Source: Kiritimatiellia bacterium
GTDB lineage: Bacteria > Verrucomicrobiota > Kiritimatiellia > RFP12 > UBA1067
Direction of reading: 5' to 3'
Length of the DNA: 64,000 bases
Assembly (NCBI GenBank): GCA_017514235.1
Contig: JAFWKK010000040.1
Span: 1-64,000 of the forward strand
Shown: piece by piece, positions 28,246 to 59,260 of the stretch
Layout: every line of letters begins with the position of its first letter
How positions within the stretch are numbered: position 1 is the first letter of the stretch
Position numbers and translations under genes: made by a program
The notes under the pieces: generated by a model
The model's input: the letters and a program-made list of their open reading frames with translations, nothing else
What the model was told of the DNA's origin: nothing
The model's database searches: none

Positions 28246-31200
28246 ATGAGGCAGATGCTAACAGTCCTTTTAGTTCTCGCGGCCGTGTCGTCGGTACGCG
28301 TCTCCGCCGAGGAGGCGGCGTCCGCCGGCCTGCCCAAGGAGAACCCCGAGCTCGAAGCCGAGATGAGTTACATCGAGGCGCTCGTCAACAACGCGTATCC
28401 CGACATTGCGGCTCCGGTCATCGAGGAGACGAAGAAGAAGTGGCCGGAGTCCGAGGCGCGGCTGTTCGCGCTCGAGATACGCAGCCTGCTGGCGCTCGGC
28501 AAGTTCGACGAGGCCGAGAAGAAGATCGCGTCGCTCCCCGACAGGAAGTCCACGAAGTACTGGGCGGCGCGCCTTGAGGTGGCGAACAACTACTTCGCCC
28601 GCGGGCAGAAGGCGGAGTGCATGAAGATATACGGCGAGTTCTTCAAGGTGTTCCCGAAGCCGCCTGCCGACATCCGCGCGTTCTACATGAACGCCTGCTA
28701 CATGTACGGGCAGCTGCTTGCGCAGGACAACCAGTACGAGAAGGCCATTCCCCGCTACGAGTCGCTTCTCTCCCAGCTCACGGAAGGCGACAACGACTGG
28801 TGCTCACTCGCGTGCGAGACGGTGAACCTCTACATGAAGGTCGCCGAGGGGCTTGACCCCGCCAAGGCCGGCAAGCAGCGCGCGGCAAAGCTCGCTGCCG
28901 CCGAGAAGATAGTGGACAAGCTTCTCTGGCTCAACGAGAAGCAGCCGCTTTACTTTGGGCGCGGCGTCTCCATGAAGGCCCACATCGCGCACATGAGGGG
29001 CAACGTCGCGAGGGCTGCCGAGATCATCGACGAGTACAAGCCGCAGCTGCAGGAGATTCACGACCAGATCGTGGCGGCCGTGGAATCCGACCCGGCGAAC
29101 GCCGGTCTTCTGAGGGAGTCTCCGCTTCCGGAGTGCATGTACCTGCAGGCCAAGATGCAGTGGGACGAGGCGAAGGCCGAGTCGAAGAAGGCAAAGCGCG
29201 ACGACGACAAGATAAAGGATCTCATGTTCGGGCCGAAGGGCAAGAACGGAAAGCGCGTCGGCGCGAAGGGCGCCTACAACATGGCGGTCAACGTGTTCCT
29301 CAACTACGAGACGAACGCGTGGGCGCCGGCCGCCGGCGACCTCTCGGAGGAGATAAAGGCGTTCGCGGAGAAGCAGTATAACGCGAAGATCAAGACCAAG
29401 GTGACGCCAGAGCAGATTGCGAAGGTCCGTGCCGCGCAGTTCAAGGAGGCGAACGAGAAGTTCGCGGCCGGCGACTACGCCGGTGCGGTTGAGGCGTACC
29501 TGGCGGTGCTAGCAAGGTATCCCGAGGTGCAAGAGTCCATCGCTGCGGTGGAGAGGGTGGCGTCCGCGCTCGTTGATCTTTCGATAGAGGCGAAGAACGC
29601 CAAGAACGAGGCGAAGTCGGCGGATTGCAGGCTTGACGCGGACGCGGTGGAGGGCTACCTCGCCGAGCGCTTTGCGGGCGCAAAGCAGAAGCTGCTGATG
29701 ACTTCGGCCGGCGACGCGGTGGTCAGGCTCGCGAAGAAGGAGATCGACTACAAGAACGAGGCGGCGGCGGACAGGCTGTACATGATGTTCCTTGACAACT
29801 ACCGCAGCCACAGCATGGCTCCGAACGTGGCCGCCGCCAGGGCATCCGAGCTGCAGAAGGCCGAGAGATACGAGGATGCCGCGCGGTACTGGGGCGTCAT
29901 TGCGACCGTATACACGAACTCGTCCTCTTACGCGGCGGCGCTCCTGCAGCTGAGCGTCTGCAGCGGCAAGCTCGGCGACAGCGCTGGCGAGATCGAGTAC
30001 ATGACGAAGTACCTCGACGCGGAGACGGTTCCGGTTAGAAGGCTTCAGGCGCAGTTCAAGCTGGCGCAGATGTACCAGCGCAACGGGCTTGAGACGCTTG
30101 CCTCCGCCTCGACGAACGAAGCTCCTGAGGCGGTGGAGGCCGCGGAGCGTCAGGGAACGGCCCAGATTGTCCGCGCCGTCAAGACGTTCGCCGGCTTCAC
30201 TGCGGCGGCAGACGCCGCGCTCAAGGACCCGACGACCAGCAAGGAGGACGCCGGGAAGTACCGCGAGCTGCGCGAGGCGGCGCTCTTCATGGTCGGCGAG
30301 TGCTGGAGCCACATGAGCCGGCCGGAGAAGAACCTGCCGGCGTACCGCAAGCGCGCAGCCGACAGCTACGAGGCGTATCTCAAGGAATATCCGGAAGGGC
30401 AGTATGCCAAGGGCGCCTACGTGAAGCTCGGCACGATCTACACGGCGCTCAACGACATGGCGAAGTCGAAAGACGCGCTCGATCGCCTGTCCAAGACTTT
30501 CCCCGACTCCGACGAGGCGAAGAACGCGAAGCCTCGCCTTGCCAAGAGCCTCATGGAGATGGGGCTCAAGAAGGAGGGTGCCGACATCTACGCCGAGATG
30601 TTGCGTACGGACGGCGCCTACAAGCCCGCCCAGTTCCTGAACGCCGGCGAGGCTCTCATAGAGGCGAAGGACTGGGACCTGGCGAACCAGGCGTTCGAGA
30701 AGACGATCCGCATGGCCGGCACGAACACGCCTGTGACGGTGGCGCGCGCTCGGCTGGGCCAGGCGAAGTGCGCATGGCGGCAGGGCCTGCTTGCGGAAGC
30801 CCGCGAGTCGCTTGACCGGTTCCTGGGCGACCCGAAGATGTCGAAGATGGCCATTGCGGCTGACGCGAACTTCATGCTTGTCGAGGTTGCCTCGGAGCAG
30901 GGCCGCACGGAGAAGGACGCTGCGATGCGCGGCAAGTACTTCGGCGCGGCGATCGGCGCGCTGAAGAAGGTCCGCCAGTACTGGGCCAAGAAGCCGCTCT
31001 GGGAGCAGAACCAGCTCGACTTGCTCTCCGGCGACGTGCTGGTGCGGCGCATGAAGGCCGAGGAAGCGATGGGCCTGAAGGAAGAGGCGAAGGAGACGTG
31101 CGGCCGCGCGGCCTCGACGTTCCAGGTGTTCCTGCAGGCGCACGGCGCCGACGCGGAGCATCCTATCGACAAGATGGATCCGGGCGACGTCGCCAACCTG

Positions 31201-31380
31201 GAGCGCGCGTACTCCACGATGATCCCGCTCTTTTCCCAGCTGGGCGCCGAGCAGGCCGACCGCGTGATGAAGTACGGGAAGGAGTATCTCGAACTGTTCC
31301 CGAACGGAAAGTCCAGGACCGAGATCGAGAACTGCATGAACCAGGCGAAGGCCGACCTGCCGGCGAATTCCGCGAACTGA
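28246..31380 (+). CDS. Giant exported TPR protein
   Basis: 1044 residues from ATG 28246 with a signal peptide (MRQMLTVLLVLAAVSSVRVS, then AEEAA). The remainder is almost wholly helical, with many TPR-like repeats: 'ALEIRSLLALGKFDEAEKKI', 'AAVEAYLAVLARYPEVQ'-type units, 'RYEDAARYWGVIATVY', 'DSYEAYLKEYPEGQYAKGAY' and 'LDRLSKTFPDSDEAKNAK'. The 'YP(E/D)' and 'FPDS' helix ends resemble those of YbgF/CpoB and BamD, which work with Tol-Pal or Bam complexes. As the first gene of the ExbB-ExbD operon it probably provides a large periplasmic scaffold. It contains no catalytic motif. Confidence 0.85.
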   Translation: MRQMLTVLLVLAAVSSVRVSAEEAASAGLPKENPELEAEMSYIEALVNNAYPDIAAPVIEETKKKWPESEARLFALEIRSLLALGKFDEAEKKIASLPDRKSTKYWAARLEVANNYFARGQKAECMKIYGEFFKVFPKPPADIRAFYMNACYMYGQLLAQDNQYEKAIPRYESLLSQLTEGDNDWCSLACETVNLYMKVAEGLDPAKAGKQRAAKLAAAEKIVDKLLWLNEKQPLYFGRGVSMKAHIAHMRGNVARAAEIIDEYKPQLQEIHDQIVAAVESDPANAGLLRESPLPECMYLQAKMQWDEAKAESKKAKRDDDKIKDLMFGPKGKNGKRVGAKGAYNMAVNVFLNYETNAWAPAAGDLSEEIKAFAEKQYNAKIKTKVTPEQIAKVRAAQFKEANEKFAAGDYAGAVEAYLAVLARYPEVQESIAAVERVASALVDLSIEAKNAKNEAKSADCRLDADAVEGYLAERFAGAKQKLLMTSAGDAVVRLAKKEIDYKNEAAADRLYMMFLDNYRSHSMAPNVAAARASELQKAERYEDAARYWGVIATVYTNSSSYAAALLQLSVCSGKLGDSAGEIEYMTKYLDAETVPVRRLQAQFKLAQMYQRNGLETLASASTNEAPEAVEAAERQGTAQIVRAVKTFAGFTAAADAALKDPTTSKEDAGKYRELREAALFMVGECWSHMSRPEKNLPAYRKRAADSYEAYLKEYPEGQYAKGAYVKLGTIYTALNDMAKSKDALDRLSKTFPDSDEAKNAKPRLAKSLMEMGLKKEGADIYAEMLRTDGAYKPAQFLNAGEALIEAKDWDLANQAFEKTIRMAGTNTPVTVARARLGQAKCAWRQGLLAEARESLDRFLGDPKMSKMAIAADANFMLVEVASEQGRTEKDAAMRGKYFGAAIGALKKVRQYWAKKPLWEQNQLDLLSGDVLVRRMKAEEAMGLKEEAKETCGRAASTFQVFLQAHGADAEHPIDKMDPGDVANLERAYSTMIPLFSQLGAEQADRVMKYGKEYLELFPNGKSRTEIENCMNQAKADLPANSAN

Positions 31381-31413
31381 CGGCCTGAAGTGAATTTCAA
31401 GGAGTAACGAAAG

Positions 31414-32172
31414 ATGAAGAAGACGATGATCCTGACGTTCGCAGCGCTGGCCGCTGCGGAGACGTTCGCCATTCAGGGTTCGGTTTCGACAGAGGCCGAG
31501 ACCTTCGCCGGCGACATCAAGTGGCACGCCCGCGACAAGAAGTACGTGGTAGAGAAGGGCAAGGTCACCAAGGAGTTCAAGCTTGCGGACGTGACGGGGC
31601 TTGAAATACCCGAGCCGGCCGGGTTCAAGAAGGCCGCGCAGATGGTGGACGAAGGCCAGGGCGCCGCGGCCATCGCGACGCTGACTAAGATCGTAGCCGA
31701 CTACAGGATGCTGAAGTGGGACAAGCCGGCGGGGCGCTATCTCGCGCTCGCCTACCTTGCCGCAGGCAACGCGCAGAAGGCTTACGACGCATGCCAGCCG
31801 ATCGTCGCCGAGGACAAGGCGTCGGCATATTCCGGCGATCTCGCAGCCGCCTACTGGCAAGCCCTGCTGAAGCTCGGCAAGCGCGAGCAGCTGGAGGGCC
31901 TGCTGAAGAAGGCGTCGTCGTCCGCCGACCGCGCGGCCTCTGCCGCGGCGCTCGTCATGCGCGGCGACATAATCGTCGCCGCGTCGAACGACAAGCCCGA
32001 CGAGCTGCGCCGTGCGCTCCGCGACGGCTACCTCAGGGTCGTGCTGATGTATCAGGACGCGGCATGCGCCCGCGAGCGCAGCGAGGCGTGTCTCAAGGCC
32101 GCACAGTGCTTCGACAAGCTCGGCCAGTCGTCACGGGCGGAGCAGCTGAAGGCATCGGCGAAGGCGATCTGA
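31414..32172 (+). CDS. Exported TPR-like protein
   Basis: 252 residues with a signal peptide (MKKTMILTFAALAAAETFAI). After an N-terminal beta-rich segment ('GDIKWHARDKKYVVEKGKVT') it has helical repeats such as 'AGRYLALAYLAAGNAQKAYD' and 'LQCFDKLGQSSRAEQLKASA'-like helices. It has a good ribosome binding site (AAGGAGT) and lies 33 nt downstream of the giant TPR gene. It is probably a smaller periplasmic partner of the same machine. Confidence 0.75.
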   Translation: MKKTMILTFAALAAAETFAIQGSVSTEAETFAGDIKWHARDKKYVVEKGKVTKEFKLADVTGLEIPEPAGFKKAAQMVDEGQGAAAIATLTKIVADYRMLKWDKPAGRYLALAYLAAGNAQKAYDACQPIVAEDKASAYSGDLAAAYWQALLKLGKREQLEGLLKKASSSADRAASAAALVMRGDIIVAASNDKPDELRRALRDGYLRVVLMYQDAACARERSEACLKAAQCFDKLGQSSRAEQLKASAKAI

Positions 32173-32266
32173 AATGAATTTGACCGATTGCCGTGGAAGG
32201 CAGTCGAGGACACAAGGAAACCAGCAGAAGATTCAACAAAAATCTAACCAAAAGGAAAACAACCAA

Positions 32267-33085
32267 ATGAACAAGATCAGGAAGACACTTCTTGCGGCGT
32301 CGGTTCTCGTGGGAACCTGCGTCGCGCCGATGGCCGCGCTCCAGTCGCTGGGACAGGAGCTGACCGATGCCGAAGGCAACAAGGTCGAGGCCAACGCGGC
32401 CGTTACAAAGAAGTCCGGGGGAGGCTTCTACGACATAGTCTTCGGTTCCGGCATCGTGGGCATGATCCTCTGGTTCGCGCTGTTTGCCGACGGTGCGCTT
32501 GCGATCTACTTTTCCATAGACTCGGCGATTCTCATCAAGCCGGACAAGCTCATGCCTAAGAAGCTTCTTGACGGCGTGCAGGCCGCGATGGGCGAGGGCG
32601 ACGTCGTGAAGGCGATGGAGGTGTGCCAGCAGAACCCCGCCGCGATGTCAAACATCGTCATGGCGGCGTTCCAGCACATCGAGGAGGGCTTCGAGGCAAT
32701 ACAGGAGGCCGTCACGGCGGCGTCCGACCTGGAGCAGGAGAAGATACAGCAGCGGCTCAACTGGATTTCGGTGTGCGGCAACCTTGGCCCGTCCCTCGGC
32801 CTGCTCGGCACCGTGCAAGGCATGATCCTTACGTTCCAGGCCCTTGCTTCGGGCGGCGCGGGCGACGCGTCGGCACTCGCTAGCTCCATCGGCCAGGCGC
32901 TCTGGACGACTGCCGGCGGCCTTATCGTGTCCATTCCCTCGATAACCATCTTCTACTCTCTCCGCAACAAGGCCAACCGCCTCATTCTCAAGATGACGGC
33001 GATGACCATGGAGATCCTTAACGAACTGCGGAACGTCGCCGTCGAGCCCGGTGCGGAGGGCGAGGCCGCAGGGCTTCCCGCCTGA
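32267..33085 (+). CDS. exbB: MotA/TolQ/ExbB proton channel protein
   Basis: 272 residues from ATG 32267, preceded by AAAAGGAAAAC. An N-terminal signal-like segment (MNKIRKTLLAASVLVGTCVA) and an extra 45-residue periplasmic stretch precede the three-helix ExbB core: TM1 'SGIVGMILWFALFADGALAI', a cytoplasmic loop, 'VCGNLGPSLGLLGTVQGMIL' (the conserved G-L-L-G-T-V motif of TM2) and TM3 'WTTAGGLIVSIPSITIFYSL'. ExbB pentamers with ExbD convert proton flow into movement of a TonB-like partner. The N-terminal extension is typical of environmental ExbB forms. Confidence 0.93.
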   Translation: MNKIRKTLLAASVLVGTCVAPMAALQSLGQELTDAEGNKVEANAAVTKKSGGGFYDIVFGSGIVGMILWFALFADGALAIYFSIDSAILIKPDKLMPKKLLDGVQAAMGEGDVVKAMEVCQQNPAAMSNIVMAAFQHIEEGFEAIQEAVTAASDLEQEKIQQRLNWISVCGNLGPSLGLLGTVQGMILTFQALASGGAGDASALASSIGQALWTTAGGLIVSIPSITIFYSLRNKANRLILKMTAMTMEILNELRNVAVEPGAEGEAAGLPA

Positions 33086-33098
33086 GGGGGGCGAGCCC

Positions 33099-33581
33099 AT
33101 GGCGCAGAAGTCAAAGCACAACCCCGCCCTCGACATGACGCCGATGATCGACGTCGTGTTCGAGCTCATCATCTTCTTCGTCGTGACGCTGGTGGAAGCC
33201 CAGCGCAAGGACGAGACGATCGAGCTTGAGGACGGCAGGCACGGCATAGTGCTGACGCCCGAGGAACTGCCGCCGACGCACATGATGATCGACATCGGCC
33301 TCAGGAAGGGCAAGCCCCGCATCTCCATGGGAGACCGGGATATCACGCCGGAGGAGATCGGCCGCCGCGTGAAGGAGAAGATGCATCGCGTCGGCGAGTT
33401 CCCGGTGCTTATCCGGGCGGACTACGCCGTTCCGCACTACGCCGTCGCTCGGGTGATGAACGCCTGCACCGCCGCGGGGTTATGGAAGATATCCTTCGTA
33501 GCGGTCCAGGAGGACAAGACCTCGAAGCCGGGCCACCCGGGCCGCAAGCGCCTGGCGGCCCTGAAGAGAAGGGGGAACTGA
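33099..33581 (+). CDS. exbD: ExbD/TolR family protein 1
   Basis: 160 residues from ATG 33099. Starts with the ExbD motif 'LDMTPMIDVVFELIIFFVVT', in which the Asp of 'MIDVVF' is the proton-carrying residue of the single membrane helix. A periplasmic domain follows ('HMMIDIGLRKGKPRISMGDR', 'EFPVLIRADYAVPHYAVARV'), with a basic C-terminal tail. The first 62 nt of the motif are nearly identical to those in the next gene. Confidence 0.93.
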   Translation: MAQKSKHNPALDMTPMIDVVFELIIFFVVTLVEAQRKDETIELEDGRHGIVLTPEELPPTHMMIDIGLRKGKPRISMGDRDITPEEIGRRVKEKMHRVGEFPVLIRADYAVPHYAVARVMNACTAAGLWKISFVAVQEDKTSKPGHPGRKRLAALKRRGN

Positions 33582-33582
33582 C

Positions 33583-33990
33583 ATGGCGCGCAAGCCCCAG
33601 GAGAATCCCACCCTCGACATGACGCCGATGATCGACGTCGTGTTCGAGCTCATAATCTTCTTCGTCGTGACGATCAAGCAGGAGGACATCTTCTCGAAGC
33701 TCAACGCCAACCGGCCCGCGCCGGCGTCAGGACAGAGCTCGAACGAGTCCGACACGACGGTCACGATCGAGATCGGCCGCGGCCCGGACGCGAACGGCCT
33801 GCTGGTCTACAACAGGCGCCCGGTGCGCCGTTCGGAGCTAGACCAGTACCTTCGCGACGTCGCCCGTACGTCGAAGAAGACGCCTATCATCATCAAGTGC
33901 GCCGAGGATTCGCCCCACAAGGCCCTCGTCGACGCGCTTGACATCTGCTACCGCAATCAGCTCTTCAGCGTCAGCATATTCACGCTGTAG
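33583..33990 (+). CDS. exbD: ExbD/TolR family protein 2
   Basis: 135 residues, starting 1 nt after the first ExbD gene. It shares 'LDMTPMIDVVFELIIFFVVT', including the conserved Asp, but has a different periplasmic domain ('TVTIEIGRGPDANGLLVYNR', 'TPIIIKCAEDSPHKALVDAL'). Two non-identical ExbD subunits would allow a hetero-dimer inside one ExbB ring. It ends 20 nt before the TonB-like toroid gene. Confidence 0.93.
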   Translation: MARKPQENPTLDMTPMIDVVFELIIFFVVTIKQEDIFSKLNANRPAPASGQSSNESDTTVTIEIGRGPDANGLLVYNRRPVRRSELDQYLRDVARTSKKTPIIIKCAEDSPHKALVDALDICYRNQLFSVSIFTL

Positions 33991-34010
33991 GGAACAAGGA
34001 GCCGAAGACA

Positions 34011-35738
34011 ATGTCCGACGAGAGCAGCGAATGGGACGAGACGGCCGAAGAGGCGCCGCTGTCGGCCGAGGAGCTTTTCGAGATTCACAAGGCCGAGATT
34101 GACGCGGCATTCGAGGAGCGCGGCATCTTCCGTCGCCTCGGCGACATGTTCCGCGGCCTGGGGCGTCCGCGCTCGTCGCCCGAATACAAGCTGGCGGTGC
34201 TTGAGCTACAGCGGCTGATCGCGCCGCTCTGCGCGATCGTCCTGCCGACGCTTGGCGTGCTGATACTCATCGTCGTCACTGCCGTTACGGGTCAGAACGG
34301 CGAGACGATACAGGTTGACATAGCCCGCGCCCAGGAGGACGAGGCGGAGCTGGAGGAGCAGCAGGATCCCGATGAGATCGAGGAGCAGACTCCGCCCGAG
34401 GAGGTCGTAGACGTTCAGGTGGACACCCCGAACATCTCCGAGGTCGACGTGTCAACCCCTACGCCGACTCCCAACGAGCCGGTCTCGGTGAAACCCGCCA
34501 CGCAGGACTCCGTCGCGCTCATCAAGTCGCCTATCACGATGAGGTCTATGGCCGGCTCGCGCAACCCCGGATCGATCGGCAAGTTCACGTCCGGCGGCGG
34601 CTTGTACGGAGACGCGGCAACCGAGGGCGCGGTGCTGAAGGCCCTCAGGTGGCTCAAGAAGACGCAGAACGCCAACGGCAGCTGGTCGCCGGTTCCAATA
34701 TCCAACACGGGCCTTGCGATTCTAGCCTTTCTTGCGCACGGCGAGACGCCGGCCTCCAAGGAGTTCGGTCCGACCGTGCAGAAGGCGATGCAGTTCCTTA
34801 TCGACTCCCTCTCCAAGAAGCGGGACAAGACGGGCAAGGAAGTCGTTACCTTCAAGGGAACCGACGGGAACGAGTACGCGACCCTGATCGCGACGTATGC
34901 GCTCTGCGAGGCGTACGGCATGACGCGCAACCCGAACACCAAGGTCGTGGCCGAGCAGACCCTCCAGCGCATCGTCGACAACCAGAGTCCCACAGGCGGC
35001 TGGGACTATGGCATCAACAAGGCCTCGACACGCGACGACATGTCATTCGCCGGCTGGGCGCTTCAGGCGCTGAAGGCCGGCAAGATGGCCGGCATGCACC
35101 CGAAGGGACTGGACGAGTGCATCAAGAAGGCGATCAAGTGCCTCAAGACTCGCAACTTCCGCAACGGCGGCTTCAACTATACCGCAGGCGGAGGCCCGAC
35201 GGGCCTGACGGCTACCGGTTGCCTCGCAATGCAGCTTCTCGGCTACATGAACGAGAAGGAAGTCAAGGATGCGCTTGAGACCATGCGCCCGTGGAAGCCG
35301 TCGTTCACCGGCAACAAGGGCACGAAGCTCTCCGAAGCCTTGCCTTCCGGCAACCCGCAGTACTACTGCTACTATGCGGCCCAGTGCAAGTACCAGGCCG
35401 GCATGTGCCAGGGAGCTACGCCAGCGAACATAAAGACCTGGCAGGACTGGAACATGGCCATGAAGGCGCTGTATCCGAGGACGATCATAACGCTTCCCGA
35501 TACGATCGAAGGACCTGACGGCAAGCCGCGCAAGATCGGCTACTGGAAGTGGGTCGCCGACGAGACGTGCAAGGGCGGAGGCGACACTATGACTACGTGC
35601 CTGTGCGCTCTCCAGCTTATGGTCTACTACCGCTATCTGCCTACCATGCAGACGAAGGCTGCCAAGGCCATCACCGAGCCGGAAGAGTCGGAAGAGTCCA
35701 AGAAGACCGCCGAGGTCGACGTTGAAGTCGACATCTGA
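34011..35738 (+). CDS. TonB-like protein with a C-terminal prenyltransferase/squalene-cyclase-type toroid
   Basis: 575 residues. Residues 1-69 are cytoplasmic and acidic; 70-92 form a single membrane helix ('IAPLCAIVLPTLGVLILIVV'). Residues 95-165 are an acidic, proline-rich linker ('EIEEQTPPEEVVDVQVDTPN', 'STPTPTPNEPVSVKP'), as in TonB. Residues about 205-550 carry repeats of the alpha6/alpha6-toroid type found in terpene cyclases and prenyltransferase beta subunits: 'ALRWLKKTQNANGSWSPVPI', 'IVDNQSPTGGWDYGINKAST' and 'CLKTRNFRNGGFNYTAGG'. No cyclase DxDD motif is evident. I infer a proton-driven arm ending in a toroidal binding or enzymatic domain in the periplasm. Confidence 0.8.
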   Translation: MSDESSEWDETAEEAPLSAEELFEIHKAEIDAAFEERGIFRRLGDMFRGLGRPRSSPEYKLAVLELQRLIAPLCAIVLPTLGVLILIVVTAVTGQNGETIQVDIARAQEDEAELEEQQDPDEIEEQTPPEEVVDVQVDTPNISEVDVSTPTPTPNEPVSVKPATQDSVALIKSPITMRSMAGSRNPGSIGKFTSGGGLYGDAATEGAVLKALRWLKKTQNANGSWSPVPISNTGLAILAFLAHGETPASKEFGPTVQKAMQFLIDSLSKKRDKTGKEVVTFKGTDGNEYATLIATYALCEAYGMTRNPNTKVVAEQTLQRIVDNQSPTGGWDYGINKASTRDDMSFAGWALQALKAGKMAGMHPKGLDECIKKAIKCLKTRNFRNGGFNYTAGGGPTGLTATGCLAMQLLGYMNEKEVKDALETMRPWKPSFTGNKGTKLSEALPSGNPQYYCYYAAQCKYQAGMCQGATPANIKTWQDWNMAMKALYPRTIITLPDTIEGPDGKPRKIGYWKWVADETCKGGGDTMTTCLCALQLMVYYRYLPTMQTKAAKAITEPEESEESKKTAEVDVEVDI

Positions 35739-35784
35739 GTGAAGCCCCGCCGTCTGCCGACTTCCTGAAGGCGATGCAGCACCA

Positions 35785-37227
35785 ATGGCGAACGAAAGCA
35801 GGCGGAAGGCGGCTGTGGCGCACGGTCGAATCCTTGCGACCGTTGCGGCAGGTTGCATCGCGCAAGCGGCTTTTTCTGACACGTCGGTGGAGTTTGACGC
35901 CGGCATACATTCCCGCATCCGCCAGACATGCGTAAGGAACGCTCCCGGACTTCCGAACGGCGGAGACGCCGTGCCGGTCAGCAAGGAGCGCAAGGCGAAT
36001 ACGCAGGGAATGCGCGTGGATTCCTACCCGTGGGTCAACGCGAAGTGGCGTGAGTACACGGCGGTCCTCGGCTTCGGGCACTCGTTCATCGAGTACTTCG
36101 AAGGCGTGACTTCGCCTCACAGCGAACGAGCCTATCGCCTGCCGGACATTCTCTACCTGAACAACCTCTATCTTGACGGGACGGGAGTCTGGGACGGATT
36201 CATGGACTTTCGGATCGGACGCCAGAACATGACCGAGAACCGGCGTTCCGTGCTGGGGCTCGACAGGCTGATACTCGACGGCACGCCAGGTGACAGTTCT
36301 GTCTCCACGTATTCCGACATGGCCAGGTTCCGGTTCCATTTTGACGAGCGCAGGAGTCTTGACCTCTTCGGACTTTATGATTGTGCCCGCAACACGATGA
36401 GCATGGGGCTCAGTCGGGCCAGGCAACGCTCCCTGAACCGCCTCACTTCGTCCGATTCGCCGGACATGGACCAGTTTGGCGCCGGTGCAATCTGGAGCGA
36501 CACCGTCGGCGAAGCGATGCCGTTCAAGGCATATGCGATACTGAAGGGCGACCGTTCATATGAGCGGAAGGGCGAACGGCAGCCCGGCAAGCGGATCGCC
36601 ACGCTTGGCGTGAACGTGAGACCGCAGCTGACGGAGACTCTCTCGCTCGACCTTGAGGGTGCGCAGCAGGCAGGGCGGCGCACAAATGGACGCTTTGCCG
36701 GCGGCACCATGGCGTATCTAGACGTCGTCTACCGCCGGGAGTGCCCGTGGGAATTCAAGGCAAGCCCGTACGGACACGCAGGCGTATGGTTCATGAGCGG
36801 CGACAAGCACCGCCTTGACGCGGACGATTCGGATACGGCCTGGGATCCGCTATGGCGTCGCATTTCGGTTCCGAGCGAGATTTTCGCCAATGGAGCTCAT
36901 CCGGGCCTTAGGTACTGGACGAACATGCTGTGGCTGAACGGCCTGGTGGGGCTTGATTTCGGGCGTATGCACCGCGTGGAGGCGTATTCGGGTCCGATAT
37001 TCGCGCCAGCGCAGGATGAACTCGGCGGCGGCGATTCGTCGTTCAAGGGCGTACTTTCGCGCATCAACTACTTCTTCCCGATTCGCCTTGCGCCTGCCAA
37101 CGCGCATGGCATGGACAGGTGCGAAGTGTTTGGAAGCGCCTGCTTCGAGCTGTTCAATCCTGGCGATTACTACGCTTCCTCCAAGCCGGCGATCTACGTG
37201 CGCTGGCTTCTGAACTTCAGGTTCTAA
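35785..37227 (+). CDS. Outer-membrane beta-barrel protein (alginate-export-like)
   Basis: 480 residues with a signal peptide in the first 31 residues ('ATVAAGCIAQAAFSDTSVEF'). The rest is a run of amphipathic strands: 'WREYTAVLGFGHSFIEYFEG', 'FMDFRIGRQNMTENRRSVLG' (the 'RxGRQ' segment common in AlgE-like barrels), 'YGHAGVWFMSGDK' and 'LFNPGDYYASSKP', ending 'YVRWLLNFRF' with the terminal phenylalanine used for BAM recognition. It is probably a channel or the outer-membrane end of the ExbBD machine, located 46 nt downstream of the toroid gene. Confidence 0.8.
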   Translation: MANESRRKAAVAHGRILATVAAGCIAQAAFSDTSVEFDAGIHSRIRQTCVRNAPGLPNGGDAVPVSKERKANTQGMRVDSYPWVNAKWREYTAVLGFGHSFIEYFEGVTSPHSERAYRLPDILYLNNLYLDGTGVWDGFMDFRIGRQNMTENRRSVLGLDRLILDGTPGDSSVSTYSDMARFRFHFDERRSLDLFGLYDCARNTMSMGLSRARQRSLNRLTSSDSPDMDQFGAGAIWSDTVGEAMPFKAYAILKGDRSYERKGERQPGKRIATLGVNVRPQLTETLSLDLEGAQQAGRRTNGRFAGGTMAYLDVVYRRECPWEFKASPYGHAGVWFMSGDKHRLDADDSDTAWDPLWRRISVPSEIFANGAHPGLRYWTNMLWLNGLVGLDFGRMHRVEAYSGPIFAPAQDELGGGDSSFKGVLSRINYFFPIRLAPANAHGMDRCEVFGSACFELFNPGDYYASSKPAIYVRWLLNFRF

Positions 37228-37321: not shown

Positions 37322-38449
37322 GTGGTAGAGACGAAAAGAATTTTGTCGATTGATGCGTTGCGCGGCTTTGACATGATGTGGATCGCGGGGGTTGATCGGG
37401 TTTTGAAGCGTGCTGGCGCGGCGCTGAACAACGACTTCGGCGCGGCGATGGCCGCGCAGATGAACCATGTTGACTGGGCGGGGCTGCACATAATTGATCT
37501 TGTGTTCCCCACGTTCGTGTTTCTTGCCGGCGCGAGCTGGCCTTTCTCGCTCGCGAGCAGGCGTGCGAGGGGTGCAACGGATCGGCAGATCCTCTGGAGC
37601 ATCGTGAAGCGCTTCCTCATCCTCTTCGCGCTCGGGCTTCTCTACGACAATTTCTTCAAGTTCAATTTTGCCAACTGTCTCTACAACTCCGTTCTCGGCC
37701 GTGTCGGATTAGGGTGGGCGGTCGCGGCGGCCACACTCCTGCTCTGCAAGAGGCTGAGGACCGTCATCTGGATATCGGTCGGCATTTTCGTGGCATACTG
37801 GCTTGCGGGGCTGTTGATACCGCTCGCTGTGAACCCTCCGGGCGTTGATCCGTGGGCGCCGCGCGAGGTTGCCGTCACGCGGCTTCTCGACAACAAGTTC
37901 TTTGACGGGCTTGCCGCGCTGTTCGGCGGCGATTTCCAGAATGTGCGAAGGCAGGGGCTTTTCGCTGGAATCGGCTGCATCTCGTCGGCGTTCCTCGGGA
38001 TGTACGCGGGTCTCATCCTCAAGCATGACGGATGGTCGCCGGCGCGAAAGAGCGGCTTGCTGGCGCTCTTTGCGTTGGCGCTTGGAGCGGGCGGCGGGAT
38101 TGCGCTGCTCACCGGTTGCCCGTGCGTGAAGCCGAGCTGGAACCCCACGTACATTCTCGTGGCGGGTTCCATCGCGACGGCGCTTCTCGCGCTCTTCCAC
38201 TGGCTCATCGATGTCAAGGGGCGCGTGGCGTGGAGCTTCCCGTTCCGCGTGATTGGCATGAACTCCATCACGGTGTACCTTCTGTACCGCATGGTGGATC
38301 TGGAGACGACCAGCAAGTTCTTCCTTGAGGGCACTGCCAACCTCTTTCCGGAGCCGTGGGCGCAGACCATCACGGCGGCCGGCGCGGCGGCGCTTGCGTG
38401 GCTCGCGATGTACTGGCTGTATCGAAAGAAGATATTCATCAGGGTGTGA
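37322..38449 (+). CDS. Membrane acyltransferase of the HGSNAT/DUF5009 type, copy 1
   Basis: 375 residues from GTG 37322 (AAAGGAG upstream). The N-terminus 'RILSIDALRGFDMMWIAGVD' carries the S-x-D-x-L-R-G motif shared by lysosomal heparan-alpha-glucosaminide N-acetyltransferase and its bacterial relatives. About ten membrane helices follow, including 'LVFPTFVFLAGASWPFSLAS' and 'FRVIGMNSITVYLLYRMVDL'. These proteins move acetyl groups across the membrane onto sugars. Its paralogue lies at 40026-41150 and the two flank a GH28 gene. A 92-nt segment is identical between them. Confidence 0.88.
   Translation: MVETKRILSIDALRGFDMMWIAGVDRVLKRAGAALNNDFGAAMAAQMNHVDWAGLHIIDLVFPTFVFLAGASWPFSLASRRARGATDRQILWSIVKRFLILFALGLLYDNFFKFNFANCLYNSVLGRVGLGWAVAAATLLLCKRLRTVIWISVGIFVAYWLAGLLIPLAVNPPGVDPWAPREVAVTRLLDNKFFDGLAALFGGDFQNVRRQGLFAGIGCISSAFLGMYAGLILKHDGWSPARKSGLLALFALALGAGGGIALLTGCPCVKPSWNPTYILVAGSIATALLALFHWLIDVKGRVAWSFPFRVIGMNSITVYLLYRMVDLETTSKFFLEGTANLFPEPWAQTITAAGAAALAWLAMYWLYRKKIFIRV
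37979..38070 (+). repeat. 92-bp segment identical to 40680-40771
   Basis: It encodes 'ISSAFLGMYAGLILKHDGWS' and the following 'PARKSGLLAL'. The identity is uninterrupted at the DNA level although flanking codons have diverged, the mark of gene conversion. Confidence 0.85.
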
Positions 38450-38534: not shown

Positions 38535-39947
38535 ATGGTAAAGTTGATGTTTCTCGCCCTTGCGGGCGCATGCGCCGCATGCCCGGCTACGACGTTCGAC
38601 GTGCGGGATTTCGGTGCGAAGGGTGACGGTGCGGCCAAAGACACAGCCGCCATCCAGCGGGCGCTTGACGCCTGCGCCAAGACGGGCGGCCGTGTTGTCG
38701 TGCCGCCCGGGACCTACCTGATCGGCTCCGTTTTTCTTGGCGATGGCACGGAACTCCATCTGCAGGAGGGAGCAACCCTTCTCGGCAGTCCGGATCTTGC
38801 CGACTACAACGCGCCGGACGCCTATCCGCAGAATTTCTGCAGTCCACGTGAGGGCTGGAGCGCGAAACACCTGATCCTTGCTATTGAGCGGCGGAACGTG
38901 TCCATCACGGGGCGCGGAGTCATAGACGGAAACGGGCGTGCCTTTTTCGAAAGCAAGCCTTTACGCTACTACAAGGTCTGTTGGCGCGATGGCTACTGTC
39001 AGGTGCGGGGACCTCGCAAGGAGATGGGACGTCCGGGGCAGGAGATCGTGTTTGTGGAGTGCGCGGACGTGATCGTGCGAGACGTGACCTTCCGTGACAT
39101 GAGCTGCTGGAGCTGTCTTTTCCATGGTTGCGAAAACGTGACGGTGAGCGGCGTGACCGTGCGAAACGGTCTCCGCAACATGAACACCGACGGTTTCGAT
39201 GTCGATTCCTGCCGGAACGTCAGGATTGGCGATTGCGACATCGTGACCGGCGACGACGCGATCGCCATCCGCGGGGTGCCGTCGCGTCTGAAGGACAAGA
39301 CGAAGGTTTGCGAGAACATCCGCGTATCGAACATCGTCTGTCACGTGTCGGCGGATGGCGTGCGCGTGGGGGTTGGGGACGGCACGATCCGCAATGTGCG
39401 TGTGTCAGACATGACGATAGAGCGTGCCGGGCGTGGGCTCCATGTGCAGTGTTGCTACGTCAAGAACAAAGGCAATGTGGCTGTGAAAGGCGTGGACATC
39501 TCGGACGTCTCCTTTGAGCGCATCAAGATCAGAGATGTCGCCGATGCTGTGCTCGTCGGCGCCGGCTACCCGGGCTCTCAGGCGAAACTCGAGAACATCC
39601 GCTTTGATCGCATTGACGCCGAATTCTTTGCGCCGTGCATTGTTGCTGGCAATGGCGGCACGCGCGCTCGTGACGTCAGTTTCACCGACTGTTCGTTCAG
39701 GGTTGTGCGCGCGCCTGACGAGATTCCCGACGACAACGAATCAGGTTTGCTCGCCTGTGGCCGCAACGGCGCCTTTCGCATCCAGCAGGCCGACAATGTT
39801 TCGTTTCGCGGTTGCACGCTCGCTTGGGCGGAAGACGTTTCACTGGAACTGAACCGGGCTTTTGCGGTTCACGATGCGCAGGTGCCGTTGGTAGACAAGC
39901 GTTCCGCCATGAACGATCGTCCGTCATCAGCGGCAAAGGCGGAATGA
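38535..39947 (+). CDS. GH28 (polygalacturonase-family) beta-helix protein
   Basis: 470 residues with a signal peptide (MVKLMFLALAGACAACPATT). It begins 'FDVRDFGAKGDGAAKDTAAI', the usual GH28/pectin-lyase-fold opening, followed by right-handed beta-helix coils. Of the GH28 catalytic set, NTDG (217-220) and GDD (239-241) are present. The G-H-G loop is replaced by 'HVSADGVRVG' and the R-I-K motif is not obvious. Many cysteines ('CWSCLFHGC') suggest disulfides. It may cleave galacturonans or related uronides with altered specificity, or only bind them. It lies between the two acyltransferases. Confidence 0.85.
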   Translation: MVKLMFLALAGACAACPATTFDVRDFGAKGDGAAKDTAAIQRALDACAKTGGRVVVPPGTYLIGSVFLGDGTELHLQEGATLLGSPDLADYNAPDAYPQNFCSPREGWSAKHLILAIERRNVSITGRGVIDGNGRAFFESKPLRYYKVCWRDGYCQVRGPRKEMGRPGQEIVFVECADVIVRDVTFRDMSCWSCLFHGCENVTVSGVTVRNGLRNMNTDGFDVDSCRNVRIGDCDIVTGDDAIAIRGVPSRLKDKTKVCENIRVSNIVCHVSADGVRVGVGDGTIRNVRVSDMTIERAGRGLHVQCCYVKNKGNVAVKGVDISDVSFERIKIRDVADAVLVGAGYPGSQAKLENIRFDRIDAEFFAPCIVAGNGGTRARDVSFTDCSFRVVRAPDEIPDDNESGLLACGRNGAFRIQQADNVSFRGCTLAWAEDVSLELNRAFAVHDAQVPLVDKRSAMNDRPSSAAKAE

Positions 39948-40025: not shown

Positions 40026-41150
40026 ATGGAAGAGAAGAAAAGGATTTTGTCGATTGATGCGTTGCGCGGCTTTGACATGATGTGGATCATCGGTGTTGGC
40101 GCGTTCTTGATCCAGGCGGGTCGGGCCTGGGGCGGACCTGTAGGTAACGCTGTGGCGGACCAGATGGAGCACGTGCCGTGGGAGGGGCTGCATCTGATTG
40201 ATCTCATCTTCCCAACGTTCCTTTTCCTCGCGGGCGCGAGTTGGCCGTTCTCTTTGGCGAGCCAGCGCGCGAAAGGCTACTCTGACCGTCAGATATTCTG
40301 GCGCATCGTCAAGCGCTTTCTCATCCTTGTCGCGTTTGGCCTGATTTACGACAACATCTTCAAGTTCGACTGGGTGAACTGCCTCTACAACTCTGTTCTC
40401 GGCCGCGTGGGCTTTGGCTGGGCGGTGGCGGCGGCCACGCTTCTGCTATGCAGACGGCTGCGCACCGTCATCTGGGTGTCGGTGGGGATATTCGCGGCAT
40501 ACTGGCTTATCGGTCTCATCGTGCCGCTCGTCGCGAACCCGCCGGGCGTCGATCCATGGATGCCGCGCGAGGTGGCGGTTACGCGACTCCTTGACAACTG
40601 GCTGTGGGCCGGCATCGCCAAGATATTCCCCGGCATCATGGAGATCAAGCCGCAGGGACTCTTCGCCGGATTCGGCTGTATCTCGTCGGCGTTCCTCGGG
40701 ATGTACGCGGGTCTCATCCTCAAGCATGACGGATGGTCGCCGGCGCGAAAGAGCGGCTTGCTGGCGCTCTTCTCGCTGGCGCTAGCGGCGGGCGGTGGCG
40801 TCGCGATGCTCACCGGCTGCCCGTGCGTGAAGCCTAGCTGGAACCCCACCTACATACTCGTAGCCGGGGCGATAGCGATGGGTTTCCTCGCACTATTCCA
40901 CTGGATCATCGACGTGAAGGGCTACACGAAGTGGTGCTTCGTGTTCCAGGTGATCGGCATGAACTCCATCACCGTGTATATGTTCCACCGTCTCTTCGAC
41001 CTGAAGTATACGTCGCGTCGCTTCCTGCTCGGCTTCGCCAACATGGTGCCGCCTGCATGGTTCGATGCCGTCATAGCGTTCGGCGTACCGATAATCTGCT
41101 GGATATTCGTGTACTACCTCTACAGGAAGAAGATCTTCCTGAGGGTTTAA
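40026..41150 (+). CDS. Membrane acyltransferase of the HGSNAT/DUF5009 type, copy 2
   Basis: 374 residues, beginning MEEKKRILSIDALRGFDMMW with the same S-x-D-x-L-R-G motif and helix layout as the gene at 37322 ('LIFPTFLFLAGASWPFSLAS', 'FQVIGMNSITVYMFHRLFDL'). Most divergence lies in loops and in the last helices, which may change the acceptor sugar. It starts with ATG instead of GTG. The first SUMF1 gene follows 26 nt downstream, so it likely leads the operon of region 4. Confidence 0.88.
   Translation: MEEKKRILSIDALRGFDMMWIIGVGAFLIQAGRAWGGPVGNAVADQMEHVPWEGLHLIDLIFPTFLFLAGASWPFSLASQRAKGYSDRQIFWRIVKRFLILVAFGLIYDNIFKFDWVNCLYNSVLGRVGFGWAVAAATLLLCRRLRTVIWVSVGIFAAYWLIGLIVPLVANPPGVDPWMPREVAVTRLLDNWLWAGIAKIFPGIMEIKPQGLFAGFGCISSAFLGMYAGLILKHDGWSPARKSGLLALFSLALAAGGGVAMLTGCPCVKPSWNPTYILVAGAIAMGFLALFHWIIDVKGYTKWCFVFQVIGMNSITVYMFHRLFDLKYTSRRFLLGFANMVPPAWFDAVIAFGVPIICWIFVYYLYRKKIFLRV
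40680..40771 (+). repeat. 92-bp segment identical to 37979-38070
   Basis: This is the partner of the identical block in the first acyltransferase gene. See that entry for the encoded residues. Confidence 0.85.
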
Positions 41151-41176: not shown

Positions 41177-42754
41177 ATGAAGAAACTGATTACGACGGTG
41201 CTGGTTGCCGCGACAGGGTCGGCTCTCCAGGCTGCTCTGCCGACCGTGTCCAACGTAACGCTGTCGCAGAACCCTGACACGAGGCTCGTGACAATCACCT
41301 ACACGCTGACTGGCGACACGCCGGCGATTGTGACGGCGGACATTTGCACCAACGGAGTCTCCGTCGGGGCGGTGGGCGCGGTCTCGGGTGACATCAACAA
41401 GATGATCACGCCTACCGGCGGTACATATACGGCCTACTGGCAGCCTCGTGTCGATCTGCCGGGTATCGAGTTGGATGCCAATACCGTGAATGCTAAATTT
41501 ACGGTATGGGATCGCGCCTCGCCGCCGGACTACATGGCGGTGGACCTCACGGTGACCAATTCGCGCACGTTCTATCCGAGCGCAGATATGGTGCCGGGCG
41601 GCGTCACGAACCGCCTTTACAAGACGGACATCCTGCTCATGCGCAAGATTCCGGCGGCGGGAGCGGAGTTCATCATGGGCACGCCGGTGAACAAGAACGG
41701 TGCCGGGCGCACTGAATTGGGACGTACGACTCAGGAACTGACGCCCCATGCGGTGCTGCTCACCAACAACTACTACATCGGGGTGTACACGCTCACCATT
41801 GCGCAATACCGTCACGTAATCCAAGGCCTGCCCTACTATTGCCCCTTCACGAACAACAACCTTCCCGCCGGGGCGGATGTCGAAGCCCTGCCGCTTGGGA
41901 ACTTCCAGTACTACCAGTGGCGCACGAAGAGCAAAGCGAATAGTGAACAGCCAGGGCCTGGTGACTTGACCAGCTGCACGGTACGCTGGCCTCAGAGCGG
42001 GCATGAAATCGTGACGACCAATGGTGCGTGGTTCGCGAATTTTCGAAATATCACCGGTCTTGAACTGGACTTCCCCACGGAAGCGCAGTGGGAGTTCGCC
42101 TGCCGCGCAGGTTCGCAGAATGCACTCTACACAGGTGAAGAGCTGCGCTATACAGCTGTGACCAATCTCAGCATTGCGGAGGGTGTGACCATCGGCACAA
42201 CCATCACCAACATAACAGAGAACGGGGAGACGGTGGTGACCAACATATTCAAGGTATTCAACCTCTCCACAAACCTCGAAACCATCGCCTGGTATGCGGG
42301 CAACTGGCATAAGGATCCCAACGCCCTGCGCACGCTGGACGGCAAGTTGTGTCCGCACGAGGTGGGGCTGCTCCAGCCGAACGCTTTCGGTCTCTACGAC
42401 ATGCAGGGCAATGTGTGGGAACCGTGTCTCGATGCAATGAGCAACACGGCTGGCAACGAATCCAACGGCGCCGAGGAGATTGAGCCGGTTGGGGCCTACA
42501 AGCCGACGAACTGTGATGCGCGGCATCTCATCCGCGGCGGTTGCTTCGGTGATGCGGCGTGGGGTGTGCGCATCGGGCGGAGGCTCAGCATCAACAACAG
42601 CACCACCGCCGCATCGACAAACCTCGATCAGGCTCTTGACGGCGCTGTCAACGCTTCTGCGAATACCGGCGTGCGGTTCGCCTGCCCGGCGGTGATACCC
42701 ATTGCGGTCGAAGGGGAAGTGGAAACGATACCGACGGAAGGAGGCAACGAATGA
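41177..42754 (+). CDS. Secreted SUMF1/FGE-fold protein 1
   Basis: 525 residues with a signal peptide (MKKLITTVLVAATGSALQAA). Residues 20-115 form a beta-sandwich ('NPDTRLVTITYTLTGDTP'). A formylglycine-generating-enzyme-type domain follows: 'NNYYIGVYTLTIAQYRHVIQ', 'LDFPTEAQWEFACRAGSQNA', 'NAFGLYDMQGNVWEPCLDAM' and 'RHLIRGGCFGDAAWGVRIGR'. The paired cysteines of true FGE are not seen, so sulfatase activation is unlikely; sugar or peptide binding or an EgtB-like reaction is possible. It is the first of three tandem paralogues, with AAAGGAG upstream. Confidence 0.85.
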   Translation: MKKLITTVLVAATGSALQAALPTVSNVTLSQNPDTRLVTITYTLTGDTPAIVTADICTNGVSVGAVGAVSGDINKMITPTGGTYTAYWQPRVDLPGIELDANTVNAKFTVWDRASPPDYMAVDLTVTNSRTFYPSADMVPGGVTNRLYKTDILLMRKIPAAGAEFIMGTPVNKNGAGRTELGRTTQELTPHAVLLTNNYYIGVYTLTIAQYRHVIQGLPYYCPFTNNNLPAGADVEALPLGNFQYYQWRTKSKANSEQPGPGDLTSCTVRWPQSGHEIVTTNGAWFANFRNITGLELDFPTEAQWEFACRAGSQNALYTGEELRYTAVTNLSIAEGVTIGTTITNITENGETVVTNIFKVFNLSTNLETIAWYAGNWHKDPNALRTLDGKLCPHEVGLLQPNAFGLYDMQGNVWEPCLDAMSNTAGNESNGAEEIEPVGAYKPTNCDARHLIRGGCFGDAAWGVRIGRRLSINNSTTAASTNLDQALDGAVNASANTGVRFACPAVIPIAVEGEVETIPTEGGNE

Positions 42755-44130
42755 AGATGAACCTGATTCTGCTGGCGGCGGTTGCGATGAGCGTGACCAT
42801 TCCGGTGTTTGCCACGCCGGAGATTGTGAACATGAATCTTGTGCGCGATCCGAACACGCATCTCGTGACGATCAGCTACGATCTGTCGGAGGACGCCATC
42901 GTGACGGCTCAGGTGTTCACCAACGGCGTGGCTTTGCCGCATGCTGCCTATGGTAACATGGGCGGCAAGGTGCACCGCACGGTGAAGCAGGGCACGGGGC
43001 ATCAGGTTTGGTGGAACCCGCCGACGCGCGAGGTGGATGCGCTCGTCGCTGGCGGCGGCGCGGAAGTGAAGCTCTCCGCCTGGGCGAAGGACAATCCGCC
43101 GGACTACCTCGCCATCGATCTGCTGGCCACAAACTGCTGGCGGTTCTATGTGACGGCGGAGGATGTGCCGCTCGGCGTGACGAATCGTCTGTACAAGTCC
43201 TCCAAGATGTTGATGCGCAAGATCTATGCGAAGGACATCACCTGGCCGGCGGGCATCTCATCCGACCGCATGGATGGTTCCCAGACCTACGGCACCAACA
43301 CCCTCCATAGGCCGCATTACGTTACGCTCACCTACAACTACTACATCGGCATCTATGAGGTCACATACAGCCAGTACCGCAACGCCTCCTGTTATTCCTA
43401 TAGTGGAACAACGTATGCTCCCGATAAAGAGACAGGCACAATCACTCTTTCAGGGCAGGTGTGTGATATCATCCCCTCAGATCAGAAACAGGCGGCCTTC
43501 TGGCCTGCCCCATGGCTCGCGCCATCGGATATGCGGGGACGCGACCCGACTTCCGCCTACTGGCCCAAGCATGGGCACAATGTGCCTGCCGCTTCAGGGC
43601 TGGGGTATTTCCGCAAGCGGACAGGGCTAAATCTCGATCTCACTACGGAGGCGGAATGGGAATACGCCTGCCGCGCCGGGGAATCGAAGAACCTGTATAC
43701 GGGCGAGCCGTTTCTTTCGGAAAATGTCGACACGTTGGCGTGGTCGGCGCACAACTGGAATCGCGACCCCGACTGTTCCTCCAACCAGTTGCATGAAGTG
43801 GGATTACTGAAGCCGAATGCATGGGGATTGTACGATATGCTTGGAAACGGTTTTGAGGTCTGTCTTGATGCGATGAACAACGACGATTCGGGTACAGATG
43901 TGGTTGATTTCTACCATGGCAATTCGGTGACGAATCCGGTGGGGCCGGCCGGTTCCGTCAGTTATCGCCGGGCACGGCGTGGCGGAGGGGTGTTTGATTC
44001 GACGACCTCCAATTACACCAAGGGCATGGCATTCAACGCTAGTCGTGCCGACAACCGTGTCAACATCTCATATACCGTTCAATATCCGGCGACAGCCTAC
44101 AGGCTTGCGCTCCCGGCGGTGATACCGTGA
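42751..44130 (+). CDS. Secreted SUMF1/FGE-fold protein 2
   Basis: 459 residues, overlapping its predecessor by 4 nt (ATGA). A signal peptide (MKMNLILLAAVAMSVTIPVF) is followed by the same N-terminal sandwich ('IVNMNLVRDPNTHLVTISYD') and SUMF1 domain ('NYYIGIYEVTYSQYRNASCY', '[20 protein letters not shown]', '[20 protein letters not shown]'). The region after 'RRARRGGG' differs sharply from both paralogues. The protein ends 'YRLALPAVIP', close to the 'CPAVIP' of protein 1. Confidence 0.85.
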   Translation: MKMNLILLAAVAMSVTIPVFATPEIVNMNLVRDPNTHLVTISYDLSEDAIVTAQVFTNGVALPHAAYGNMGGKVHRTVKQGTGHQVWWNPPTREVDALVAGGGAEVKLSAWAKDNPPDYLAIDLLATNCWRFYVTAEDVPLGVTNRLYKSSKMLMRKIYAKDITWPAGISSDRMDGSQTYGTNTLHRPHYVTLTYNYYIGIYEVTYSQYRNASCYSYSGTTYAPDKETGTITLSGQVCDIIPSDQKQAAFWPAPWLAPSDMRGRDPTSAYWPKHGHNVPAASGLGYFRKRTGLNLDLTTEAEWEYACRAGESKNLYTGEPFLSENVDTLAWSAHNWNRDPDCSSNQLHEVGLLKPNAWGLYDMLGNGFEVCLDAMNNDDSGTDVVDFYHGNSVTNPVGPAGSVSYRRARRGGGVFDSTTSNYTKGMAFNASRADNRVNISYTVQYPATAYRLALPAVIP

Positions 44131-44176
44131 TAGGGAATAGGGTAGAGAGGGAATAGTGAATAGGTAGGAGAGGAGA

Positions 44177-45532
44177 ATGAAGATGAGGAAGATTTTAGGA
44201 GTGGTTATGACGGTCGCGACAAGCGCGACACTTACGGCGGCGATGCCTACGGCGAGCAACGTGACGGTCTCGATGGCGCAAGGCAAGGCATTCGTCGATT
44301 TCACGCTGTCGGGCGGGCCGGCTGTGGTGACGGCGACGTTCCAGACTAACGGCGTTCCGCTCGATGCCGCGCTCTACCGCGACGGCATGGGCGGCGACGC
44401 GGGGAAATTGCTGTCGAATGGGGCGCACAAGATAATCTGGAGGGCCCACAATACCATGCCCGACCTGGACATCAGGGGTGCGAACCTGACGGCGGAACTG
44501 ACCGTGTGGCCACAATCCCTTCCGCCAGACTACATGGCGCTGGATCTGGCCAGGGCAAGCAACATAACCTACTACGCCTCCGCAGAGATGGTGCCGAAAG
44601 GCGTCACGAACCGGCTCAACAAGACGGACGTTCTTTTGCTGCGCCGCATCGATGCCTCTGGCGTAAGATGGCGTATGGGGCAACCGCTGGGTGAAGGCCT
44701 GAAGCTGTCTTCGGGCGCTACCGATATGCAGGCACATTGGGTGACGCTCACGAATGACTACTACATTGGCGTGTATGAAATGACGCAAAAGCAGTTTGCC
44801 AACGTCTGCGGAACGACCTTCACGGCCAATGCCTCGGGCTACCCGGATTCGGATGTCCGGCCGATGGAATCTGTTGGATACCATACCCTCCGGCCTGTTG
44901 ATGGTTCCGCTCCCGTCTGGCCGACGAATGGGCATGACATCGACCCCTCCGGTTGCCTGTATGCCTACCGCCAGTTGACGGGTGTTGAGATTGATCTGCC
45001 GACAGAAGCGCAGTGGGAGTACGCCTGCCGGGCGGGAACGACGACGAAAACCTATGCGGGCACTGATGTGGCGTCGATCGCCTGGTACAACGCCAACTGG
45101 AGGAATGATCCGATGAGCGTGAGCGAGGAGTGCGGGAACAAGAACCAGACCCATGCCGTGGGGCAACTTAAGCCGAATGCCTGGGGACTGTATGATATGC
45201 TGGGGAATGTGTCGGAATTCTGCTTGGATATCTTGGCGAATCCTGAGACGAAGACGGGTGGCGTTGCCTATGGCTATGGCCCGGCGGTAGATTGGTACAA
45301 AGGTGCGGACGCTGTGGAGCCTGTCGGGCCGATGGTCGGCCCCAACGGGGCGCAACCCAGAGTCAGCAACCGGGCCATCAGAGGCCAGAACTATGGCAGT
45401 GGCGATAGCGGCGGTACCATCCGCTGCTCCGCAAGGGGCACGTCGGGACGGTATGTCAGTTCCAACGGGATTGAAGGGAAAGGCTTCCGCGTGGCGTGTC
45501 CGGCGAAGGCCCCGGATTGGATGGTTCGGTAG
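44177..45532 (+). CDS. Secreted SUMF1/FGE-fold protein 3
   Basis: 451 residues. The signal peptide is [20 protein letters not shown] (ATG 44177; a start at 44183, MRKIL, is equally good). The sandwich reads '[20 protein letters not shown]'. The SUMF1 domain has '[20 protein letters not shown]', '[20 protein letters not shown]', '[20 protein letters not shown]' and '[20 protein letters not shown]'. The RGG of the fold is RGQ here. A gap of 46 nt separates it from protein 2. The three proteins have probably diverged to bind different ligands. Confidence 0.85.
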
Positions 45533-59254: not shown

Positions 59255-59260
59255 ACGCAT

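Follow-up and report, generated by a model that had tools for sequence, protein, structure and literature searches.

What does a motor of the ExbB/ExbD type drive when its arm lacks the C-terminal domain of TonB or TolA? The well-understood cases are TonB and TolA. The question is raised by a locus at positions 28246–37227 of a 64,000-nucleotide stretch of DNA (the window) from a Kiritimatiellia bacterium of the gut. The window belongs to contig JAFWKK010000040.1 (C32 here), part of a draft genome of 3.96 Mb. The original prediction, made from the letters of the DNA, placed here a seven-gene, proton-driven envelope machine whose arm ends in an alpha-toroid. We favour, with some reserve, a modified reading. 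In this reading, six of the genes would encode a proton-driven trans-envelope force transducer, working like TonB-ExbBD or TolQRA, and the toroid would be its exchangeable binding head.

All seven predicted open reading frames (ORFs) are present on the + strand, separated in order by 33, 94, 13, 1, 20 and 46 bases. The first, T (28246–31380, start ATG 28246), encodes a 1044-amino acid tetratricopeptide repeat (TPR) protein with an N-terminal signal-peptide-like stretch (TPR_6, E 4e-13), in agreement with the exported TPR protein first described. A Pfam-type family scan also gave YbgF/BamD-like matches, below cut-offs. R (31414–32172) encodes 252 amino acids with a signal-peptide-like start, and its N-terminal part looks strand-rich by eye. 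That R is a second repeat protein is borne out by its family: TPR_19 matched 17 of 34 members, and the window's R by itself has no Pfam match. B (32267–33085) is a proton channel subunit of the ExbB/TolQ type (PF01618, MotA_ExbB, E 7e-26), and its N-terminus looks exported. D1 (33099–33581; PF02472, E 3e-19) and D2 (33583–33990; PF02472, E 1e-19) are two different ExbD/TolR-type subunits. The one ExbB and two ExbDs of the original prediction are thus confirmed, with all three matches exceeding curated cut-offs. D1 and D2 both carry a membrane Asp within the motif PMIDVVF, which we take to be the proton-carrying residue. As listed, the ExbB ORF begins at 32174 (303 amino acids) and that of ExbD1 at 33051. 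The starts given above are the most likely, judged from relatives of 272 and 160 amino acids, respectively, in L031. This locus is from a Kiritimatiellae genome (goat ileum) and its arm is 97% identical to the window's. Here and below, L numbers denote fetched loci, G numbers genomes (G000 being the window's own) and C numbers contigs.

The arm, A (34011–35738), has 575 residues. They comprise an N-terminal segment, a transmembrane (TM) anchor (residues 69–93; 34215–34289), a linker, a head (residues 197–547; 34599–35651) and a tail. The sequence IQVDIAR directly follows the TM helix (residues 100–106; 34308–34328) and resembles a D-box strand. The tail, VDVEVDI, is acidic and alternating (residues 569–575; 35715–35735). 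The last gene, O (35785–37227), encodes a probable outer-membrane barrel of 480 amino acids, with a weak Pfam Alginate_exp match below cut-off. PADLOC matched none of the seven proteins and, hence, an anti-phage system is not indicated.

Conservation of gene order had been proposed as a check on the prediction. Among fetched loci, which are the best hits per lineage and so a non-random sample, with genes called by a simple script, the order T-R-B-D1-D2-arm recurs in the genus, the order, the class and the phylum beyond the class. Such recurrence across the phylum is far above chance. The conserved unit is therefore six genes, T-R-ExbB-ExbD1-ExbD2-arm, and the predicted operon stands without its barrel, which, among the fetched loci, comes straight after the arm in the window and L031 alone. 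We fetched 100 loci encoding toroid arms: 60 are linked to a motor and 27 are unlinked, and the other 13 are cut off too soon to be classed. Among these loci, the toroid gene is thus not separable from exbBD in most relatives. Several unlinked arms are additional copies, their genomes having a linked arm as well (for example L053, L091, L092, L094 and L095). Two loci are unusual. In L056 (8204–9912) the arm gene is split between two overlapping ORFs, possibly by a frameshift or assembly error. L093 (6567–12206) encodes a 1879-amino acid protein that combines two toroids with PD40 propeller repeats; ExbB and ExbD genes come directly after it.

The association of R with the motor was also considered. 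A strong R match (1e-12 or better) was found in 19 of 26 genomes searched, most of them with solo arms and G000 among them. For 14 genomes in which R lies away from the toroid arm, the R locus was fetched; in 14 of 14, R accompanies T and/or ExbB/ExbD. An arm lies behind in two of these (L163 and L164) and, in some others, ExbD2 is immediately succeeded by a different gene. Separately, a weak R homologue in L177 (6060–10486) lies near genes that, by eye, resemble an Mla/MCE lipid transporter (permease, ATPase and MCE protein).

A survey of the phylum covered 288 genomes, each at least 85% complete, with 97 in the class and 191 outside it. The arm profile, built from 47 arms and used at E 1e-30, matched 147 genomes; this count includes two arms with a different head (G219 and G283, PA14-type, see below) caught via their N-terminal half. 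The R profile, built from 34 R proteins and used at E 1e-12, matched 127. Within the class, arm and R occur together in 85 genomes, arm only in two, R only in two and neither in eight (Fisher p 1.3e-8, with no correction for relatedness). The link is weaker outside the class, with 24 genomes having both, 36 the arm only, 16 R only and 115 neither.

The head of the arm was modelled using AlphaFold2. Block values of the predicted local distance difference test (pLDDT) were 82–98 across residues 201–540, with a dip to 67–73 at residues 381–400. The helix list gives about six inner and six outer helices. Fold comparison supports an alpha/alpha toroid, as predicted, and the closest solved fold handles squalene. 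In Pfam scans, squalene-cyclase matches in the arm were sub-threshold only, and there was no TonB match; the C-terminal domain is predicted to be a toroid, not a TonB or TolA domain. Toroids also occur in another context. In six genomes of the genus (L098, 509–2290, and L193–L197), an N-terminal extracytoplasmic function (ECF) sigma factor is followed by one TM helix and a C-terminal toroid. The sigma domain was identified by Pfam for L098 only, and by similarity for the others. These proteins may be transmembrane sigma factors that sense through a toroid in the periplasm, and the fusion fits the toroid as a ligand-sensing module.

The head can be exchanged. In some close relatives, the arm is predicted to carry a PA14 carbohydrate-binding-type fold where the window has its toroid. 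Eight PA14-type arms are listed; a ninth match, L175, gave no scored arm. In L183 (T-R-B-D-D-arm) the head is vWA-like by eye, confirmed by no tool. One PA14-headed genome has a single in-frame TAA within its R match (G017:C20:41808–42569). What remains the same is the tail. Among 113 arms, collected at a lower score threshold than the 111 used below for residue counts and including two with PA14 heads, 88 have the loose pattern [DEN][VIL]x[VIL] near their end, compared with 34 of 977 among the remaining genes in these loci. For the strict form, the numbers are 46 of 113 and 0 of 977. The loose pattern is found in 47 of 51 arms from L031–L100, mostly the genus and order set, and in all eight listed PA14-type arms. 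Since the tail is kept while the head changes, it is likely a docking signal. Judged by these sequences, the arm looks like a tool holder. PA14 heads and the shared tail were not part of the original view of the driven arm, which is supported in part.

The best surviving alternative, which we nonetheless consider unlikely, is that the toroid is a motor-tethered enzyme. Here, the invariant residues would be catalytic, for example on a glycan or isoprenoid, and the motor would place or feed the toroid. Residue conservation was measured in 111 arms (122 matches less 12 that were cut off, over-long or short, plus the window). About a dozen polar or aromatic toroid residues, including His243, Glu245, Glu300, Asp343 and Arg541, are kept in 108–111 of these arms, although 47 arms range from 32 to 97% identity to that of the window. 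In addition, enzymes make up most of the fold neighbours listed, squalene-hopene cyclase, GH76 and sugar epimerases included. Conversely, DxDD, the catalytic motif of class II terpene cyclases, is absent from the window's toroid, and D.DD occurs anywhere in only four of 111 toroids. Position 342, presumably that of the cyclase acid from the motif, varies among the 111 arms. A PA14-type fold replacing the head in the same slot, and toroids fused to sigma factors, also argue against an enzyme. Hence, we infer that the toroid serves to bind a ligand rather than to cyclise terpenes. As to the beta subunit of protein prenyltransferases, whose zinc site is Asp-Cys-His, a comparison by sequence position shows D343 and then Ser at 345 in 110 of 111 arms, where such a site may have Cys.

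Quite improbable, in our view, is a role in lipoprotein or lipid traffic, with the toroid binding acyl or polyprenyl chains alongside an adjoining LolC/E-type permease. A LolC/E-type homologue does directly follow the arm in 21 fetched loci, several with overlapping ends, and squalene is what the closest solved fold handles. However, all 21 loci are in the window's family. The window's own LolC/E-type gene (58031–59290, − strand) is ~22 kb from the arm and on the other strand. Its best match, TIGR02212, is below cut-off, as for both LolC/E-type proteins scanned. In nine loci of the class, the gene after the arm is instead MutL-like by eye. The gene downstream of the arm is thus lineage-specific, and we rejected it as a general functional link.

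How might the arm engage the motor? Ser16 and His20 of Escherichia coli TonB contact Ser34 and Trp38 of ExbB (PMC12215075). Distant toroid arms carry the equivalent Ser-x3-His in their TM anchor. In the window, and most of its order, this is Ala-x3-Pro or similar. The predicted TonB-like anchor thus holds for distant arms, and the window itself has Ala and Pro in place of Ser and His. Position 79 is Pro in 47 and His in 34 of 111 arms. The partner residue covaries. In 60 loci where both genes were available, with anchors classed from alignment columns, ExbB has Ser at the column of Gly107 (TM1, numbered on the window's 303-amino acid ORF) in 20 of 20 loci with His arms, and in two of 40 with non-His arms. 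By eye, this column appears to be that of Ser34 in E. coli. Parsimony gives four changes each for the anchor and ExbB characters; the events are few but coincident. We take the covariation to support docking of the arm at the site used by TonB, and a rewiring of the contact in the window's lineage.

A second contact may involve the strand after the TM helix. The D-box is an alternating strand pattern with flanking prolines after the TM segment (PMC10907165). The window's IQVDIAR fits the alternating pattern but is without flanking prolines. A strict D-box pattern was matched by 41 of 111 arms, compared with a mean of 7.8 (maximum 17) in 200 shuffles. The charge pattern around the TM helix, and the TonB-type anchor of relatives, argue for a periplasmic rather than a cytoplasmic toroid.

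These observations bear on a further alternative, to which we give slightly less weight than to lipid traffic: what the motor drives would be T/R or some other arm, with the toroid protein a mere passenger in the operon, anchored in the inner membrane. Toroid arms do occur solo, as do T-R-B-D-D cassettes with no arm, and the missing Ser-x3-His of the window's anchor would suit a passenger. Conversely, arm and R are jointly present or absent in the class, the site at which TonB docks shows covariation between anchor and ExbB, and the arm has a D-box-like strand. Finally, an uptake system, in which the arm would open the barrel next to it in the manner of TonB and its receptors, is suggested by the barrel-like gene after the window's arm but is very improbable, given that among the fetched loci the barrel adjoins the arm in two genomes only, that its homologues are common elsewhere in relatives, and that a distinct ExbB-ExbD-TonB locus (L043, encoding a TonB C-terminal domain) and one TonB-dependent receptor match are present in the genome. 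Barrel homologues were found in 51 of the 59 genomes searched, the window's own included; we thus rejected the barrel as a seventh part and regard it as a facultative neighbour outside the conserved unit. The ExbB gene of the TonB locus (G000:C34:98295–98543) has one in-frame TGA; a pseudogene, frameshift or assembly error is possible.

Returning to the force transducer, its parts could work together as follows. The ExbB ring and the ExbD1/ExbD2 pair would convert proton flow into motion or tension of the arm. The arm would dock with its TM helix on ExbB and its D-box-like strand on the ExbD pair. The acidic, proline-rich linker would span the periplasm, and the toroid displayed at the end of the arm would grip a ligand. 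T and R, as exported TPR partners, would probably scaffold the arm or its target, organising the target side. The conserved tail would probably join a shared partner through strand addition. The likeliest ligand may be a glycan-containing envelope polymer, because a PA14-type fold can fill the slot of the toroid, and the toroid has invariant polar and aromatic residues. This is the weakest step of the proposal.

Several observations weigh against the force transducer. The window's own anchor, with Ala75 and Pro79, is without Ser-x3-His. The p value of the anchor/ExbB covariation overstates its strength, because there are only around four changes on the tree. The strict D-box pattern is not fitted by 70 of 111 arms. 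The conserved polar pocket suits an enzyme as well as a binder, and proteins of the toroid fold bind lipids as well as sugars. Of 87 arm loci that can be resolved, 27 have no adjoining motor. Seven of the 26 genomes searched gave no strong R match (G043, G058, G276 and four of one genus). Outside the class, 36 genomes match the arm profile without R; 22 of these are in one family, and four fetched genomes of that family have one to three toroid arms with no adjoining motor. The tail is absent in some lineages (L108–L111 and some others).

The four tail-less loci deserve separate description. L108–L110 have two or three tandem toroid arms, and L111 has one; none has a motor, and a fucosidase-like gene is near in L108. 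The genomes may be Akkermansia, a guess that takes account of this gene; toroid arms are present and a strong R match is absent. We also looked, without result, for a connection with the mucin-utilisation locus of Akkermansia muciniphila: nothing on ExbB/ExbD there was among the matches listed, and passages of one review (PMC12418764) were covered as well.

Force transducers with vWA heads, encoded beside similar motors, have been published (Williams-Jones et al., 2025; PMC12204202); the original prediction took no account of them. The window's cassette belongs with them in kind, differing in its head and in having R as an extra gene. Both have a TM helix, then a linker that is disordered, and a globular head with no relation to the C-terminus of TonB. 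Both also have the same upstream genes: a TPR gene, a TolQ-like gene and two TolR-like genes (T, B, D1 and D2 in the window). R is an addition, and section 8 of that paper mentions no gene like it. Whereas their head is vWA, here it is a toroid, or PA14-type in relatives; no vWA match was found in the window's arm using Pfam. Many of the vWA transducers keep an SHLS motif. The words 'toroid' and 'squalene' do not occur in the main text of PMC12204202. The window's genome also encodes a vWA arm, with its own ExbB, an ExbD match and a YbgF-like TPR gene (L041:6407–10837, on G000:C25). This arm has Ser-x3-His in its TM helix and is close to the published type. No paper on toroid- or PA14-headed ExbB/ExbD arms was among the matches listed in literature searches.

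Compared with TonB-ExbB-ExbD and TolA-TolQ-TolR, the cassette has the same motor families, a single-TM arm, a linker and a strand that resembles the D-box apart from its flanking prolines, and distant toroid arms share Ser-x3-His, which is Ala/Pro in the window. The differences are the lack of a TonB or TolA C-terminal domain, the two different ExbDs and the extra TPR partners T and R. Squalene-hopene cyclase and other class II terpene cyclases share the alpha/alpha toroid fold and QW-like repeats. They have two toroids whereas the arm has one, with no DxDD and a membrane arm, and we expect no role in cyclisation. PA14 carbohydrate-binding domains (6m8m, 6x8d and others) resemble the predicted alternative head of relatives, not that of the window. 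Here, the domain is on a motor-linked arm rather than an adhesin or glycosidase.

Beyond the cassette, two similar membrane proteins, which we take to be acyltransferase-like, are encoded at 37322–38449 and 40026–41150 of the window, either side of a gene that is pectate-lyase/GH28-like by eye (38535–39947). Three consecutive exported proteins with alike starts follow at 41177–45532; the first is, by eye, of the formylglycine-generating-enzyme type.

A broader view can be offered tentatively, and we hold it to be possible rather than probable. Besides Ton and Tol, Verrucomicrobiota-type bacteria may possess a proton-driven envelope machine of a third class. Its six-gene motor would pull a glycan-containing envelope polymer via exchangeable heads (toroid, PA14-type, and a further or vWA type), many with a common strand-like tail that plugs into one shared docking partner. 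If true, a conserved motor cassette with interchangeable heads would show that ExbB/ExbD motors are a general platform for periplasmic force. Testable handles on the coupling of arm to motor, and on the target that is pulled, would come from the exchange of heads, from the tail and from the covariation of anchor and ExbB.

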